NCBI GenBank assembly: GCA_913064945.1
Contig: CAJYAN010000006.1
Location: forward strand, 62,001-126,000
Source of the DNA: an uncultured Gammaproteobacteria bacterium
Lineage (GTDB): Bacteria > Pseudomonadota > Gammaproteobacteria > UBA6429 > Thiohalophilaceae
Reading direction: 5' to 3'
Length of the DNA: 64,000 bases
How positions within the stretch are numbered: the first letter of the stretch is position 1; each line of letters starts with the position of its first letter. Of this stretch, positions 37,411-43,740 are shown piece by piece. A program made the position numbers and the translations under genes. The notes below the pieces were generated by a model. The model was not told the DNA's origin. It saw nothing but the letters and a program-made list of their open reading frames with translations, and did not search any database.

Positions 37411-38142
37411 CAAGGAACGTGTCATGCCAAGGAAACCCCGCGTCTATTTAGGCAATATCCCTGCCCATATTGTTCATCGTGGTCACAATCGTGACGCCTG
37501 TTTTTTTAGTGATGAGGATTATCTGTATTATCTGGAGTGTCTTTATCAGGGTTGTCGACGCTATACAGTACAACTACACGCCTATGTGCTGATGACGAAT
37601 CATGTTCATCTTCTTATGACCCCAGCGGATGAAGCAGGCATCTCCAGGGTGATGCAACATATCGGGCGTCTTTATGTTCGCCATATTAATCAAACCTATC
37701 GTCGCAGTGGCAGCTTATGGGAGGGGCGACATAAAGCCAGTCTCATTGAAGCCGAAAACTATCTTCTTACCTGTTATCGCTATATTGAACTTAACCCCGT
37801 CGCAGCAAATATGGTGGCTTTTCCAGAAGATTACCGATGGAGTTCTTATCAACACCATGCCTGTGGATTGACAAACCCTAACATCATTGAACATGACGTC
37901 TATGTACGCCTCGGTAGTAGTAGCACACTACGAAGTGCGGCATATAGCGCACTTTTTTCTTCACGGATTCCTCAGCAGGATATCACTCAGATTCAAAAAT
38001 CCATTAAATATAATTATCCGCTTGGCAGTGATCGCTTCCGCCAGCAGATTGAAATCGCGCTAAACAAAAGTGTCGGCTATAGCCGTTTAGGTAGACCTGC
38101 GCGTCGGTAACTGGTTAATATTAAAGCACCACGACCCCTTTT
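37328..38142 (+). mobile_element. REP-associated transposase element with terminal inverted repeats
   Basis: The left end AAAGGGGTCGTAGTGCTTTT (37328-37347, continuing ATTTTAA) matches, inverted, the right end TTAATATTAAAGCACCACGA (from 38115, continuing CCCCTTTT). These ~27-base ends enclose one Y1 transposase gene. The same right end recurs at 39995-40023 and 42662-42690 beside deleted copies, so the unit has moved as a whole. Confidence 0.8.
37424..38110 (+). CDS. REP-associated tyrosine transposase (RAYT, Y1/HUH family)
   Basis: The 228-residue IS200/IS605-like transposase has the HUH histidines in LMTNHVHLLM and, after it, the helix with the probable catalytic tyrosine near RLYVRHINQTY. 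The SLWEGRHKASLIE and YIELNPVAA stretches are hallmarks of RAYTs. It cuts single-stranded DNA at REP-like hairpins. It appears intact, with AAGGAACG before the ATG at 37424. Two broken relatives lie downstream (39582-40023 and 42331-42690). Confidence 0.93.
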   Translation: MPRKPRVYLGNIPAHIVHRGHNRDACFFSDEDYLYYLECLYQGCRRYTVQLHAYVLMTNHVHLLMTPADEAGISRVMQHIGRLYVRHINQTYRRSGSLWEGRHKASLIEAENYLLTCYRYIELNPVAANMVAFPEDYRWSSYQHHACGLTNPNIIEHDVYVRLGSSSTLRSAAYSALFSSRIPQQDITQIQKSIKYNYPLGSDRFRQQIEIALNKSVGYSRLGRPARR

Positions 38143-38160
38143 TCCTTTTACCCCTTTTTA

Positions 38161-38186
38161 CCAGGGCGGCTTCCTTGCCGCCCTGG
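38161..38186. terminator. Strong hairpin after the secreted-protein gene
   Basis: CCAGGGCGGC and GCCGCCCTGG pair perfectly around a six-base loop, seven bases past the stop at 38194 (minus). No U-run follows on either strand, so it may instead be an RNA-stabilising or REP-like hairpin. Confidence 0.4.
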
Positions 38187-38193
38187 TAGTAAC

Positions 38194-38796
38194 TTAGTGC
38201 AGCGAAGCAAGTTTAACGTCTTTATAACCTAGTGCTTGGGCAACATCGTACATTGCCTGGTTAAGGATTTTATGAGTCGTCATGTCTGCTGCGTGTCCAA
38301 ATTTTGCATCAATATCCTTCATTACTAAAATGTGAATTTGATTAGACAATGCTTTATCAAATAAATAGCCCGACCACCACGTTCCATCAGGTGCTGTACC
38401 TGCAACAACAAGCGTTTTAGCCAATTCTGCACCTTTCAGGTTCGCCGGTGCAACGGGCAGTTTAATTCCAGCTTCAGTGGCATGTTTTAGCGCACTATTG
38501 ACCGCAAACGTCATACCACTAATAAAGGCATTTACATTCTCATTTCCATATTGCCTGTTTAGTTTTTCAACTTCTGCATGGACTGTTTCATCTCCTAACA
38601 TCGATACCAGTGCGGTAGCAAAATTGAAATTACTTGTACCTCCACCAGCTTTGACTAAGGCAGCGGTTACCTCTAGTGCCGGAGCCCCATTATGAACTTC
38701 CCCGCCGAACCAGTTGGTCTCGGCGATTGCAATTGATGAACTTACCAACATAACTACTGTGGTTGTTACTGTGGCTAAAACTTTTAATAAATTCAT
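38194..38796 (-). CDS. Secreted protein of unknown function
   Basis: I do not recognise this family. The 200-residue product has a clear signal peptide (residues 1-26, hydrophobic core VTTTVVMLVSSSIAIA, likely cut before ETNW). The mature part has no cysteine and no transmembrane segment, and carries tryptophan-rich GTWWSGYLFD and a histidine-rich C-terminus (QIHILVMKD, FGHAADMTTHK, LASLH). It is divergent from an HTH regulator with an intervening palindrome, which suggests it is the regulator's target. The local base composition is more AT-rich than the core genes. Confidence 0.7.
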   Translation of the reverse strand: MNLLKVLATVTTTVVMLVSSSIAIAETNWFGGEVHNGAPALEVTAALVKAGGGTSNFNFATALVSMLGDETVHAEVEKLNRQYGNENVNAFISGMTFAVNSALKHATEAGIKLPVAPANLKGAELAKTLVVAGTAPDGTWWSGYLFDKALSNQIHILVMKDIDAKFGHAADMTTHKILNQAMYDVAQALGYKDVKLASLH

Positions 38797-38881
38797 TAGT
38801 GATACCTCTTATGTATTCTCAAAGTGAAATAGGAGCAAGAAGTATAGGATTTAATAGTCACTTTTACAAGTTAAATATGTT

Positions 38882-38903
38882 TTAAGTGATATATATTGCT
38901 TAA
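38882..38903. promoter_or_regulatory. Palindrome, possible operator of the divergent regulator
   Basis: TTAAGTGATATATATTGCTTAA is too long to spell further; 18 of its 22 bases are symmetric (arms TTAAG/CTTAA around an ATATATAT centre). Additional AAGTGA/TCACTT half-sites are at 38821-38827 and 38858-38863. All lie in the 135-base divergent intergenic region. Binding by the adjacent regulator is inferred from position only. Confidence 0.5.
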
Positions 38904-38931
38904 GTAGGTTTCTTCGAGTAGGATATTGAGC

Positions 38932-39573
38932 ATGTCGTCCTTACTCAATACCATTGGTGAACGCCAGCAGTCTTTGCTCAAGCTCTTGTTAGTTAACCAA
39001 GTGGGTATGACCGTTGACGAATTGGCCCAAGCCCTTGATATTTCGAGAAATGCTGTAGTCCAGCACTTAACTACTTTAGAAGGCTTAGGGTTTGTCCAAA
39101 ATACTATTCAGTCAAGTACCGGTGGACGCCCTAGCAAGCGATATACACTCACATCAAACGGTAAAGAGGTATTTCCGCGACATTATGGTTTGTTCGCTAA
39201 TACGCTAATTCACCTGTTACGCAAAAAACTTGGTGAGCAGGAGCTGAGTCTTTATATGGTGGAACTCGGTGAAATAATTGCCAGGCAATATCAAGCTCAG
39301 CTAGACGAAAGTGAAACCCTAAATGAAAAATTAACGGTGCTGGTTCAAATTATGCTTGAGTTAGGATATGAGGCCCGTGCAAACACCAACGATGAAGGTG
39401 CTCCTGAAATAATTGCAAATAATTGCGTATTTCATCAGTTGGCTGAAGAGTGTAAAACAGTATGTGAGCTTGATATTGCATTTATTACTTCCGCGCTAAA
39501 CGGTGCATCTGTTGATCATCGAGAGTGCATGGTTCGAGGTGGTCGTTGTTGCCGTTTTACAATCACTAACTAG
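38932..39573 (+). CDS. HTH transcriptional regulator with SufR-like cysteine cluster
   Basis: The 213-residue protein has an N-terminal winged helix-turn-helix (residues ~12-75, with DELAQALDISRNAVVQHL as recognition region and a GGRPSKRYTLT wing). Its C-terminal domain has C165, C174, C178, C199, C206 and C207. The spacing C-x12-C-x20-C-x6-CC resembles the SufR-type regulators that bind an iron-sulfur cluster. The ATG at 38932 has AGGA eight bases upstream; a TTG at 38926 is less likely. A role as a redox or iron-sulfur sensor is inferred. It is divergent from the secreted protein and upstream of the hydrogenase. Confidence 0.8.
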   Translation: MSSLLNTIGERQQSLLKLLLVNQVGMTVDELAQALDISRNAVVQHLTTLEGLGFVQNTIQSSTGGRPSKRYTLTSNGKEVFPRHYGLFANTLIHLLRKKLGEQELSLYMVELGEIIARQYQAQLDESETLNEKLTVLVQIMLELGYEARANTNDEGAPEIIANNCVFHQLAEECKTVCELDIAFITSALNGASVDHRECMVRGGRCCRFTITN

Positions 39574-39581
39574 AGGGTCTT

Positions 39582-40023
39582 GGTATTTTTATCGGGGTAA
39601 TCGACGCTATACAGTACAGCTCCACGCCTATGTCCTGATGACGAATTATGTTCATCTTCTAATGACACCAGCGAATGAAACAGACATTTCCAGGGTGTTT
39701 CAACATATCGGGCGTCGATGTCCATCCTGTTAATAAAACCTGTCGTCCAGTGGTAGCTTATGGGTGGAGCGACATAAAGCCAGTCTCATTGAAGCCGAAA
39801 ACTATCTTCTTAGCTGGTATCGCTATATTGAACTTAACTTCGTCGCGGCTTCCTCAGCAGGATATCACTCAGATTCAAAAATCCATTCAATATCAGTATC
39901 CACTCGAAAAGATCGTTTTTGCGAGCAGACTGAAATTACGTTACACAAAAGTGTCGACGATAGCCATTTAGGTAGACCTATGCATCGATAACTGATTAAT
40001 CTTAATGCACCACGTCCCCTTTT
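39582..40023 (+). pseudogene. RAYT remnant 1
   Basis: This is a degraded copy of the transposase at 37424-38110. Recognisable parts are the RYTVQLHAYVLMTN segment (His lost to Tyr in NYVHLL), the KPVSLKPKTIF region and the C-terminus with the right terminal repeat. Frameshifts break it and ~160 bases are missing between the sites equivalent to 37806 and 37966 (junction GTCGCGGCTTCC). It starts eight bases after the regulator's stop. Confidence 0.9.
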
Positions 40024-40034
40024 GTGCATATCAA
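40021..40034 (+). promoter_or_regulatory. Possible FNR/Anr-like site before the hydrogenase
   Basis: TTTGT-GCAT-ATCAA resembles TTGAT-N4-ATCAA; the right half is perfect and the left has three of five matches. A TATTAT/TATATA -10-like stretch is at 40052-40060, which would put the site about 40 bases before a start near 40067, the class II activator position. The left half is also the end of the RAYT remnant. Speculative. Confidence 0.3.
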
Positions 40035-40147
40035 ATAACTTAACTTTAAACTATTATATAAATACCAGACATATTCAATACAAATCCCCCAAGCTGGATG
40101 TTCAGCTTAGTCGTTCCGATACACCAATTTTTTATTAGTAGTGTAAA

Positions 40148-42220
40148 ATGATCACACTTACAATTAATGGCAGATCTATCGAAATCATTGGTGGTTCAAC
40201 GTTGCTCGATGCGGCCAGAAAAGCGGGGGTACATATCCCCACGCTCTGTCACTATCCCTGCCTGCCGTCTCATGCAGTTTGCCGAGTATGTCTCGTTAAT
40301 GTTTCTGGTGAAGATAGGCCCGTACCTGCCTGTGCCACTGATGCGAAAGATGGCGATATAGTAGAGACAGATTCCAGGGAATTACAAGAATTTCGCAAAA
40401 CAGATGTCCAGTGGCTACTGGCGCGTCACCCGAACGACTGTATGCAATGTGAAGTTAATGGTTCCTGCAAGCTGCGGAATTTTGTAAGTGAGTATCAACT
40501 TGAAGACATCTGGGAAAAAGTTCCAAGAGGTTCTGTCGAGCATCCAGAACATCGACTGACTGACCACACATCGCCGAGTATCTGGTGTGAACTGTCAAAA
40601 TGCATTGAATGCGGTTTGTGTGTAGAGGTGTGTGGCGATGCCCGACAACAACAATACGTGATTGGATTTGCAGAGCGTGGCTCAGGTCGCTTACCCGTCA
40701 CTGTTTTTGATCAATCCCTGGCTAACACTAAATGTATCTCCTGTGGTCAATGCACGCTTGTTTGTCCGGTCGGGGCCTTGATCGAGACCCCACACTGGCA
40801 CGATGTCCTCCATACCCTTGATGCACGTAGACGTGTTTCTGCAGTACAAGTTGCGCCAGCTACACGCATGGCCATTAGTGAAGAATTTGGTATGAAACCC
40901 GGTACCGTGAGTACGGGCAGGCTGATTAATGCGTTGAGACAGCTAGGTTTTGATTATGTCTTTGACACTAATTTTGGAGCTGATTTGACGGTCATGGAGG
41001 AATCAACAGAGTTACTGGCGCGTATCAAGAATCATAAGTCCTTACCACTTTTTACTTCCTGCTGTCCGGGATGGGTCAACTGGGTTGAGATTAATCGACC
41101 TGAGCTTCTGCCTCTTCTAAGTACGACAAAATCACCACAACAAATGCATGGCGCACTTACAAAGCGAGGAGCATTCGCTTATGCACTCGGCCCTGAATTC
41201 GCAGAGGGTATGACAGAACCTTACGTCGTCAGTGTGATGCCCTGCACGGCTAAGAAAGATGAAGCTGTGCGTCCTGGTGTGTCAGGAGATATAGACCATG
41301 TTTTAACAACCCGCGAACTGGCCAGGATGATTCGAGCGCGTGATATTGCGTTTGGCGCACTATCGGAGAATGGTAAATTCGATAATCCACTTGGTGAAAG
41401 TACTGGTGCTGGACAGATTTTTGGAGCATCAGGCGGGGTCATGGAAGCAGTTGTGCGTACCGCATCTCATTTCATCGGTGAGGAAAGCTCGCTTCCATTG
41501 GACTGGCATCAACTCCGCGGCGTAAGCAAGGCAGTGAAAACAGCCGACATTCCCGGCATAGGCAAAGTTGCTATATGCAATGGCATTGCCGCAGCGCAGC
41601 GTATGCTGGAAACGGAAACGTGGCGAGAGGAGTACGTCGCTATTGAGGTCATGGCATGTGTTGGTGGCTGCCTGGGGGGTGGTGGCGAACCCAAATCCAT
41701 GGAGCCAATGATTCTCGAAAAGCGCATGGAAGCAATCTATAATGTAGACAAAAATTCAGCGCGACGACGGTCATTTGAAAATCAGGACATTCAAAAATTG
41801 TATGCTACAGAATTAAAAGAACCCAATTCGTCTCGATCGCAGACATTGCTTCACACGAGCTATGCCTCTCGAAACTCAAAGAGGTTACTTTTGATGCGAT
41901 TTCTTGATTGTGTTGACAGGCGAGATGGCAGCGGTGCGGTCAGACTGTTTCATCCCGATGCATTGTGGTCAACAGCATCATCCTTTGGTGATATCCGGGG
42001 CACCTCAAATATTGAGGCGATAATCAGTAATCGGCTTCCGCCACGCAAGTATGGTCCTGAATATGCGCGTCATCGAATGGAATCCAGCGGTGATATCCAC
42101 GACCTCACGGTTATCACGCCCGCAGGTGAACGATGCAAATTTAGTATGGCGGTAGACAACATACCTGAAGGTAAACAGTCCAGGATGGTGATCAGACATC
42201 TTTTGCGGGAAGTCCTGTAA
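40148..42220 (+). CDS. [FeFe]-hydrogenase with C-terminal NTF2/SnoaL-like domain
   Basis: The core (residues 1-575) has the full multi-cluster architecture of Clostridium hydrogenase I. The [2Fe-2S] ligands are C34, C45, C48, C62. The His-ligated cluster is H94, C98, C101, C107. Two [4Fe-4S] sites are C152/C155/C158/C162 and C196/C199/C202/C206. All H-cluster motifs are present: TSCCPGW (C305, C306), MPCTAK (C366, K369) and MACVGGCLGGGG (C504, C508). A small-subunit-like segment ends near 573. Then ~115 residues (MRFLDCVDRRD..LFHPDALW..) look like an NTF2/SnoaL fold, which normal hydrogenases lack. It probably oxidises or makes H2 with a soluble electron partner. The maturases needed for the H-cluster are not in the window. 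It lies between two RAYT remnants. Confidence 0.93.
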   Translation: MITLTINGRSIEIIGGSTLLDAARKAGVHIPTLCHYPCLPSHAVCRVCLVNVSGEDRPVPACATDAKDGDIVETDSRELQEFRKTDVQWLLARHPNDCMQCEVNGSCKLRNFVSEYQLEDIWEKVPRGSVEHPEHRLTDHTSPSIWCELSKCIECGLCVEVCGDARQQQYVIGFAERGSGRLPVTVFDQSLANTKCISCGQCTLVCPVGALIETPHWHDVLHTLDARRRVSAVQVAPATRMAISEEFGMKPGTVSTGRLINALRQLGFDYVFDTNFGADLTVMEESTELLARIKNHKSLPLFTSCCPGWVNWVEINRPELLPLLSTTKSPQQMHGALTKRGAFAYALGPEFAEGMTEPYVVSVMPCTAKKDEAVRPGVSGDIDHVLTTRELARMIRARDIAFGALSENGKFDNPLGESTGAGQIFGASGGVMEAVVRTASHFIGEESSLPLDWHQLRGVSKAVKTADIPGIGKVAICNGIAAAQRMLETETWREEYVAIEVMACVGGCLGGGGEPKSMEPMILEKRMEAIYNVDKNSARRRSFENQDIQKLYATELKEPNSSRSQTLLHTSYASRNSKRLLLMRFLDCVDRRDGSGAVRLFHPDALWSTASSFGDIRGTSNIEAIISNRLPPRKYGPEYARHRMESSGDIHDLTVITPAGERCKFSMAVDNIPEGKQSRMVIRHLLREVL

Positions 42221-42330: not shown

Positions 42331-42690
42331 AGTGGCTTTTATTGTAACCACCACAATGCTCGTTTCAACATATCGGGCGTCGATGTCCATCCTATTAATA
42401 AAACCTGTCGTCCAGTGGCAGCTTATGGGAGGCGCAACATTAAGCCAGTCTCATTGAAGCCGAAAACTATCTTCTTAGCTGATATCGCAATATTGAACTT
42501 AACCTCGTCGCGGCTTCCTCAGCAAGATATCACTCAAATTCAAAAATCCATTCAATATAAGTATCCACTCGGCAATGATCGTCTCCGCCAACAGATTCAA
42601 ATGGCTTTAAACAAAAGTGTTGGCGGTAGCCATTTAGGTAGACCTGCGTATCGAAAATTGGTTAATATTAAAGCACCACGACCCCTTTTA
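42331..42690 (+). pseudogene. RAYT remnant 2
   Basis: A second deleted transposase copy. It begins with a left-end-like stretch (AGTGGCTTTTATTGTAACC), jumps to the ATATCGGGCGTCG block shared with remnant 1, has the same internal deletion junction (GTCGCGGCTTCC), and ends with the right terminal repeat, almost identical to the intact element's. The 5' half of the gene is missing. The ~110 bases between the hydrogenase stop and this remnant show nothing clear. Confidence 0.9.
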
Positions 42691-42693
42691 AGT

Positions 42694-43740
42694 ATGATGA
42701 AATTTGTTATTTACAACAACTGGCAGCAACTGCCAGAGAGTGCTCATGCACGATTTGCGCAAGGTGAGAAAGTCAATCTCTTTTTCTCGCGCCCGTGGCT
42801 TGAGAATGTAGCCGCCACACTGGATGATGCTGAGGCCCTTTTGCTGGCCTGCGTGATTTCCGACGGTAACGTGCTGGCAATCCTGCCGCTGATAATGGGT
42901 CATGGGAATACATGCTATTCACTCAAGCACCGATACACGAGTCACTATAGCCTGCTCCTGGCGGACGACGATCAGCAGCGGATTCTCACTTGTCTGGCGC
43001 AGGGTTTGAGCCAGTGGCCTATACACTCACTGCTATTGGAACCGATTGCCGATAATGACAGCAGGTTAACCGGTTTACACCAGGCCCTGGCCACCGCCGG
43101 ATATCACGGTGAACGACACTTTCGACACTATAACTGGATTTATCGCCTCCAACAGCAGTCCTATGTCGATTACCTGGCAAGCCGTCCTGCCCGCTTACGC
43201 AATACAATTGTCCGAAAAAAGCGTAAACTACACCGTGATCACGGTTACAAAATTCGCCTTTTTAGCGGCGATGAAGTTCCACTGGCTATGTCTGATTACT
43301 ATCTGGTTTATAATGCCAGCTGGAAGGCGAATGAGCAGTATGTCGACTTTCTGGACGGCGTTGTGGCAGGATTCTCACAACAGGGCTGGTCCAGACTTGC
43401 GGTTCTATATGTTTGCGGGCAACCTGTCGCGGCACAGCTCTGGTTCGTACTTCATGGCAAGGCAAGTATATTCAGGCTGGCGTATGATGAAGCGTGGAAG
43501 CAGTATTCGCCAGGCTCTATCCTGACCAGCTTCCTCATGGAATACGTGATCGATACGGACAAGGTGGACGAGATCGATTTTCTTACCGGGAATGACGCCT
43601 ACAAGCAGGACTGGATGTCGGAACGCCGGGAGTGCTTCGCCTTGAGTTGTGTAAAAAATGTAAAAACCGCGAACAGACATCAACGATTTATCGAGTTACT
43701 AAAATCAAAGATACTCAGGAAAACAATCAAACGACTATGA
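42694..43740 (+). CDS. CelD/BcsL-type GNAT-fold acyltransferase
   Basis: The ~348-residue protein shows the FemAB-like/GNAT domain of the CelD (PF13480) family: RLRNTIVRKKRKL, YNASWKANEQY, FRLAYDEAWKQYSPGSIL and EIDFLTGNDAYKQDWM. Such proteins transfer acyl or aminoacyl groups and often work in exopolysaccharide or cell-surface clusters; the substrate is unknown. The ATG at 42694 lies only four bases after the RAYT remnant, so its promoter must lie in that remnant or upstream of it. Its stop overlaps the next gene (ATGA), so they are coupled. Confidence 0.8.
   Translation: MMKFVIYNNWQQLPESAHARFAQGEKVNLFFSRPWLENVAATLDDAEALLLACVISDGNVLAILPLIMGHGNTCYSLKHRYTSHYSLLLADDDQQRILTCLAQGLSQWPIHSLLLEPIADNDSRLTGLHQALATAGYHGERHFRHYNWIYRLQQQSYVDYLASRPARLRNTIVRKKRKLHRDHGYKIRLFSGDEVPLAMSDYYLVYNASWKANEQYVDFLDGVVAGFSQQGWSRLAVLYVCGQPVAAQLWFVLHGKASIFRLAYDEAWKQYSPGSILTSFLMEYVIDTDKVDEIDFLTGNDAYKQDWMSERRECFALSCVKNVKTANRHQRFIELLKSKILRKTIKRL

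Follow-up and report, generated by a model that had tools for sequence, protein, structure and literature searches.

A SufR-like regulator divergent from a secreted protein of an unnamed family in a gammaproteobacterium: a possible redox- or NO-responsive pair

In the genome of an uncultured gammaproteobacterium, a gene encoding a SufR-like winged-helix regulator lies divergent from a gene encoding a secreted protein of an unnamed family (Table 1). We tentatively interpret this pair as a local, probably Fe-S-based repressor responsive to redox stress or nitric oxide (NO), together with a member of a new family of periplasmic stress proteins. The window analysed here is the whole 64,000-nucleotide stretch of DNA (G000:C6:62001-126000), taken from a 3.21 Mb genome. 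Both genes are real and stand on opposite strands, as a preliminary description of this DNA had reported; for the regulator, the ATG at 38932 is a likelier start than the TTG at 38926 given by the ORF tool, judging by eye from an AGGA upstream of the ATG. The two genes have a GC content of 42–43%, compared with 50.9% for the window. The same divergent pair was found at a second locus, L018, the sole such case among the 52 loci of the secreted family.

Table 1. Features of the gene pair and its surroundings (positions are those of the window unless a locus is named)
Feature	Position	Strand	Remarks
REP-associated tyrosine transposase-like gene, intact-looking	37424..38110	+	PF01797 51.1 bits; NF047646 65.5 bits, under cut-off 80
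Secreted protein, unnamed family	38194..38796	-	200 aa; signal-peptide-like residues 1-25
Predicted sigma-70 promoter of secreted gene, TTGTAA-17-TATACT	38841..38869	-	-35 overlaps conserved block
Candidate operator TACAAGTTAAATATGTT	38865..38881	.	Equal offset in L018
Palindrome of the preliminary description	38882..38903	.	Present; not above chance; absent from L018
SufR-like winged-helix regulator	38932..39573	+	213 aa; Cys 165/174/178/199/206/207
Decayed transposase copy	39588..40023	+	Begins 14 bp past regulator stop; pieces 87% and 83% identical
[FeFe]-hydrogenase gene	40148..42220	+	Starts 574 bp past regulator
Second secreted-looking family	L071:10322-10981; L121:6639-7181		Beside SufR-like regulators

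Sequence comparison supports the regulator as a SufR-like protein that carries conserved cluster-type cysteines. Its Pfam matches were HTH_11 and the MetOD1 domain (PF18546, 26.4 bits, passing the cut-off of 23.8; residues 92–213 of the 215-residue reading), and the best NCBIfam model was SufR (TIGR02702), with 77.6 bits, far under the equivalog cut-off of 178.8. The NCBIfam MsvR model (NF053755) gave 17.3 bits and did not reach its cut-off of 220. The C-x12-C-x20-C-x6-CC pattern pointed out earlier is present with one additional cysteine, Cys174, and three of the cysteines (ATG numbering) keep the arrangement of the SufR cluster type, C165-x12-C178-x28-C207. In an alignment of six sequences, window included and the weaker matches L066 and L067 left out, C165, C178, C199 and C207 were invariant and C206 varied; this conservation and the best NCBIfam model bear out the SufR-like assignment of the preliminary description. 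In the available part of a study of Mycobacterium SufR (PMC6034842), C203, C216 and C244 are required and C242 is dispensable, and the cysteine spacing of the Mycobacterium tuberculosis protein is x12 and x27, which the window's regulator equals but for one extra residue. The interval C199-x7-C207 is also that of C232-x7-C240 in MsvR, as given in an excerpt of PMC3729527. The AlphaFold model of the regulator, built from two sequences, was of moderate confidence (pLDDT 73.7, pTM 0.57), and most of the structure matches listed fell on the winged helix; residues 76–213 aligned with TPC6 (2bjn) over 132 residues with a Z of 11.7 and an rmsd of 3.5. No suf gene adjoins the pair at the locus: besides the secreted protein, the regulator has a transposase and a hydrogenase for neighbours.

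By eye, the N-terminus of the secreted protein resembles a signal peptide, in agreement with the earlier account of a secreted partner; "histidine-rich" was a generous term for 7 histidines in 200 residues. The claim that it belongs to no known family has held, as searches of Pfam, NCBIfam and PDB sequences with the window protein gave no match. A Pfam-A scan of 47 members returned eight unrelated weak families, none convincing (best E 0.0035, in one member), and nothing for the window protein. Invariant columns in the 47 sequences include E75, W141, D147, H155, H175, N179, Q180 and D184. The AlphaFold model was confident (pLDDT 88.9, pTM 0.81) and almost wholly helical. Its best match had an E of 0.99 with Foldseek against the PDB, an E of 1.1 against viral models, and a Z of 3.3 with VIA-align (83 residues, rmsd 3.8); no match was thus found for the model in these fold searches, a result that does not in itself establish a new fold. 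The family profile matched two globin chains in the PDB with an E of 0.007 along just 36 residues, a stretch that contains none of the invariant histidines, and the globin-coupled sensor rows compared with the model at Z 2.6; a relationship to globins, uncertain on these signals, is not adopted here.

The secreted family was absent from 36 other genomes of the same taxonomic family. In 369 genomes of the class, two others had clear copies (G294 and G076) and four gave weak matches, and among 398 genomes of the phylum, searched with a five-row profile, the window's own genome alone matched, indicating that the family is rare. No match was found in plasmids and no relative in viral contigs. The named genome collection yielded the 52 loci, mostly from Pseudomonadota, with a few from Acidobacteriota, one from Myxococcales and one Gemmatimonadetes record. 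None of the titles listed in literature searches concerned the family, for which no name is available as a search term. In a tree of 47 members, the proteins of the window, L018 and L011 formed one clade (99/96), with a weaker sister pairing of the window and L018 (94/47).

The intergenic regions of the window and L018 have one strong block in common (TACAAGTTAAATATGT and TACAAGTTATATATGT, respectively), identical at 15 of 16 bases and at the same offset, and none of 200 double shuffles reached 14 matching bases. The conserved block overlaps the -35 box predicted for the secreted gene, which fits a repressor. The promoter is the sole promoter-like site on the minus strand within 38100–40200; promoter-like sites in this interval are at chance level (4 found against 5.5 expected), and the promoter therefore remains a prediction. 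The preliminary description had proposed as operator a 22-bp palindrome, which does exist, with 9 of 11 pairs matched; as an operator it was rejected, since dinucleotide shuffling of the 130-bp region gave as good a palindrome in 106 of 1000 cases and L018, the one homologous pair found, lacks it. The element containing the block is on this comparison the better operator candidate, with one homologous pair behind it. The AAGTGA/TCACTT half-sites, also noted earlier, do occur in three copies in the 130-bp region (matched by none of 1000 shuffles, for a hexamer picked after the fact), but the whole window has 27 of them where chance would give 28.2.

The block was also sought upstream of ten other SufR-like regulator genes. 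Related sites were present before the genes of L065 (0 of 200 shuffles as good), L120 (1 of 200) and L063 (3 of 200), and weak candidates before those of L074 (11 of 200) and L064 (19 of 200). The upstream scan found none before the regulator genes of L068, L075, L076, L077 and L121, nor before the secreted gene of L011, which shares a clade with those of the window and L018, and these absences weaken our preferred reading. An exact match to the 16-mer core of the element occurs once in the genome, upstream of the pair, which suggests a local regulator. At two mismatches there were three genome sites against two control matches, so no wider regulon is claimed. No FNR-like or NsrR-like box was matched on the coding strand in the 170-bp upstream stretches of the secreted-family homologues, 37 of the 52 being covered.

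Regulators of three types recur beside the secreted family, one or another being present in 33 of the 52 loci. An ECF sigma factor is encoded within about 1.2 kb in 17 loci, with sigma-70 domains in both proteins scanned, and a TrmB-type regulator in 16, with PF01978 in the one protein scanned. Fifteen of the TrmB-type genes are intact, directly upstream and on the same strand, L026 has only a piece at the contig end, and L044 has both a TrmB-type regulator and an ECF sigma factor. Of the 19 loci without any of the three types, L011 among them, three (L052, L059 and L062) start close to the end of a contig, and L061 is a broken copy. The sequence C-x3-C-x3-C-x2-C is present in all 15 intact TrmB-type proteins (L014, L015, L020, L021, L024 and ten other loci) and is possibly a metal or Fe-S site. 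In two loci, L012 and L019, short stretches upstream of the secreted gene resemble decayed TrmB-type genes by eye. A recurrent cluster of an ECF sigma factor, the secreted protein, a small membrane protein and a DUF2231 protein was seen in L025, L033, L038, L039, L041 and L055, joined in L033, L041 and L055 by a cytochrome c gene.

A check suggested by the preliminary description was for linkage of the secreted protein's homologues to SufR-like regulators: it was seen in one of the 52 loci (L018), and a TrmB-type regulator or ECF sigma factor is present in 32. On the 47-member tree, regulator type changes at least 14 times, with "none" counted as a type, against a mean of 23.4 for shuffled types. 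Given this single SufR-like case, the commoner TrmB-type and ECF neighbours and the changes on the tree, the likeliest reading is that a SufR-like regulator has locally taken the place of the other regulators with which the family is more often paired.

Genes related to NO (NO reductase, flavohaemoprotein, Rrf2/NsrR-like or NnrS) were found near the secreted gene in 8 of the 52 loci; the other 44 had no such gene in the available stretch, and nirK, nirS and nosZ were outside the gene set sought. NnrS is encoded in L038, L039, L047, L049 and L051 (Pfam-confirmed in L051, by tblastn in the others). L041 encodes a flavohaemoprotein (438 bits, cut-off 432) to which that of L060 is 93% identical, and Rrf2-type genes are present in L041, L047 and L060; the best match of the L047 protein is NsrR, at 133.6 bits, under the cut-off of 182. 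L056 has a quinol-type NO reductase gene (E 5e-157 to PDB 3ayf) in divergent orientation to its secreted gene. Reductase-domain matches of 21–27% identity in L022, L033, L046 and L050 were excluded from the count. The five NnrS genes in these stretches, two of them in one genus, compare with 0.33 expected from a simple Poisson count. At the genome level, NnrS was present in 43 of 50 carriers of the secreted family and in 110 of 229 class genomes (Fisher 6e-7), two sets that are not phylogeny-matched and in which not all carriers belong to the background class; the carrier set includes G000, and the genomes of L054 and L059 are represented by L049 and L058. The host genome itself encodes NnrS, and a search for NorB in it, run without a positive control, gave no match. 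CMD (AhpD-like) genes are present near some secreted-family loci.

Some SufR-like homologues have neighbours of a similar kind. One (L064/L069) is divergent from genes for a truncated haemoglobin, a 2Fe-2S reductase, NorC and NorB (L069:4972-9868), and a second homologue of the same genome (L068/L070) is directly upstream of a gene for a BFD-reductase protein. A distant homologue in Salipiger adjoins genes for a group III truncated haemoglobin and superoxide dismutase (SOD), and SOD and DoxX genes are present near more distant relatives. Among the ten close SufR-like loci, the window counted, clear NO-type neighbours were confined to those of G283. The regulators of L120 (by eye), L074 and L075 adjoin acyl-CoA dehydrogenases; in L074, nirBD is about 2.5 kb away, and in L121 the only reductase-like match, of 28% identity, is 4 kb away. 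At 24 further SufR-like loci (E 3e-27 to 5e-21; 24 of 27 matching genomes), no NO seed matched and SOD was present in two; the single-sequence search missed the regulator itself in two, and we treat these homologues as another subfamily. Collectively, the gene neighbourhoods and the co-occurrence with NnrS make a redox- or NO-type response plausible, in keeping with the redox-responsive module first proposed.

There are further hints that SufR-like regulators of the window's clade may serve envelope stress modules. The regulator of L065/L072 is divergent from remnants of a pair of genes for a membrane protein and a DUF2231 protein (E 5e-6 to 2e-5), a pair that follows the secreted gene in the six cluster loci listed above, all of the ECF type, and the regulators of L063 and L121 adjoin another secreted-looking protein, whose copies are 45% identical and share six histidines. 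The L071 copy of this second protein had no Pfam or PDB match. The acyl-CoA dehydrogenases beside the regulators of L120, L074 and L075 speak against such a role.

In the preferred reading, the resting repressor would carry an Fe-S cluster, probably held by C165, C178 and C207 and perhaps C199, that keeps it bound to DNA at 38865–38881, where it would cover the -35 box and keep the secreted gene off. On exposure to NO or a related oxidant, the cluster would be lost or altered and the repressor released, switching on the secreted protein. Judging from the company it keeps, this protein may help to counter reactive nitrogen or oxygen species in the periplasm, possibly with a metal or cofactor at the invariant His155 and His175 and acidic residues. 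For M. tuberculosis SufR, the accessible portion of PMC9045647 describes repression being lifted when NO or reactive oxygen species damage the cluster.

A serious rival, which we consider possible, is a thiol-disulfide switch of the kind proposed for archaeal MsvR: the regulator would have no cluster, would detect oxidants with C178, C199 and C207, and would still control the secreted protein. The above-threshold MetOD1 match, the MsvR-like C-x7-C interval, the SOD and DoxX genes near distant regulator relatives and the CMD genes near some secreted-family loci would all suit it; the very low MsvR score and the retention of the SufR cysteine spacing, C165 included, count against it. The regulator might otherwise sense iron or Fe-S demand, the classic role of SufR, with the secreted protein aiding iron or metal handling. 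Similarity to SufR and the invariant histidines are consistent with this, yet the pair adjoins a transposase and a hydrogenase rather than a suf gene, and no iron-uptake gene is prominent among the recurrent neighbour clusters listed, making it improbable. The arrangement of the genes also has to be weighed against their mobile surroundings. An intact-looking transposase gene and a decayed copy flank the pair (a second decayed copy, at 42366–42689, brings to three the copies that surround module and hydrogenase, and the listed start of an acetyltransferase-domain ORF at 42415–43740 enters it, the true start probably being further in). These copies and the low GC content could mean that transposase-driven rearrangement made chance neighbours of the two genes, the secreted gene not being under the regulator's control; L018 has the same divergent pair with the same intergenic element, and the secreted proteins of the window, L018 and L011 form one well-supported clade, albeit with a weaker window–L018 pairing, so that we regard chance, too, as quite unlikely, marginally more so than iron sensing.

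That the regulator exerts redox control over the downstream [FeFe]-hydrogenase seems very improbable. The hydrogenase gene, whose motifs were judged by eye, matched TIGR02512 above cut-off (423.6 bits) and the A6 model at 637 bits against a cut-off of 765, with a weak SnoaL-like match, under cut-off, at the C-terminus. It shares the regulator's strand at a short distance, but transposase remnants lie between, the one exact genome site of the conserved element is upstream of the pair, and no HydF maturase above cut-off was found in the host genome. The link to the hydrogenase suggested in the preliminary description is accordingly not upheld, the recurrent neighbour clusters of the secreted family listed here having no hydrogenase either. 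A bolder extension of our preferred reading, which we offer as doubtful, is that the secreted protein represents a new periplasmic fold family that binds or removes NO or its products and has independently come under three unrelated sensors: the SufR-like repressor with its Fe-S cluster, TrmB-type proteins whose four-cysteine motif may be a metal or Fe-S site, and ECF sigma factors.

The family described here is unclassified, probably periplasmic and found mainly in Pseudomonadota, often beside a regulator and sometimes near NO enzymes, and no structural relative was found. If the preferred reading is correct, it would be a new component of bacterial defence against NO and oxidative stress, and SufR-like regulators would gain a role beyond Fe-S cluster assembly. 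NsrR, an Rrf2-family Fe-S sensor of NO, is a repressor released by NO; the proposed logic of the window's pair is alike, although the protein family is unrelated. SufR of cyanobacteria and Mycobacterium (Rv1460) has the same winged helix and C-terminal domain, with three cluster cysteines at x12 and x27/28 (PMC6034842, in excerpt); the window's regulator differs in falling far below the equivalog cut-off, in its extra invariant C199 and in having a secreted protein as partner in place of suf genes. MsvR of methanogens resembles it in the MetOD1/V4R-type C-terminal domain and the C-x7-C pair, and is set apart by its poor model score and by boxes (TTCGTA-N4-TACGAA) unlike the candidate element (PMC3729527, in excerpt). 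The TrmB-type neighbours of the secreted family may sense through cysteines as OxsR does; OxsR, as far as the available text of PMC9426492 describes it, has just one winged-helix domain and depends on one cysteine, C24, whereas the C-x3-C-x3-C-x2-C motif of the secreted-family regulators lies outside the winged helix.
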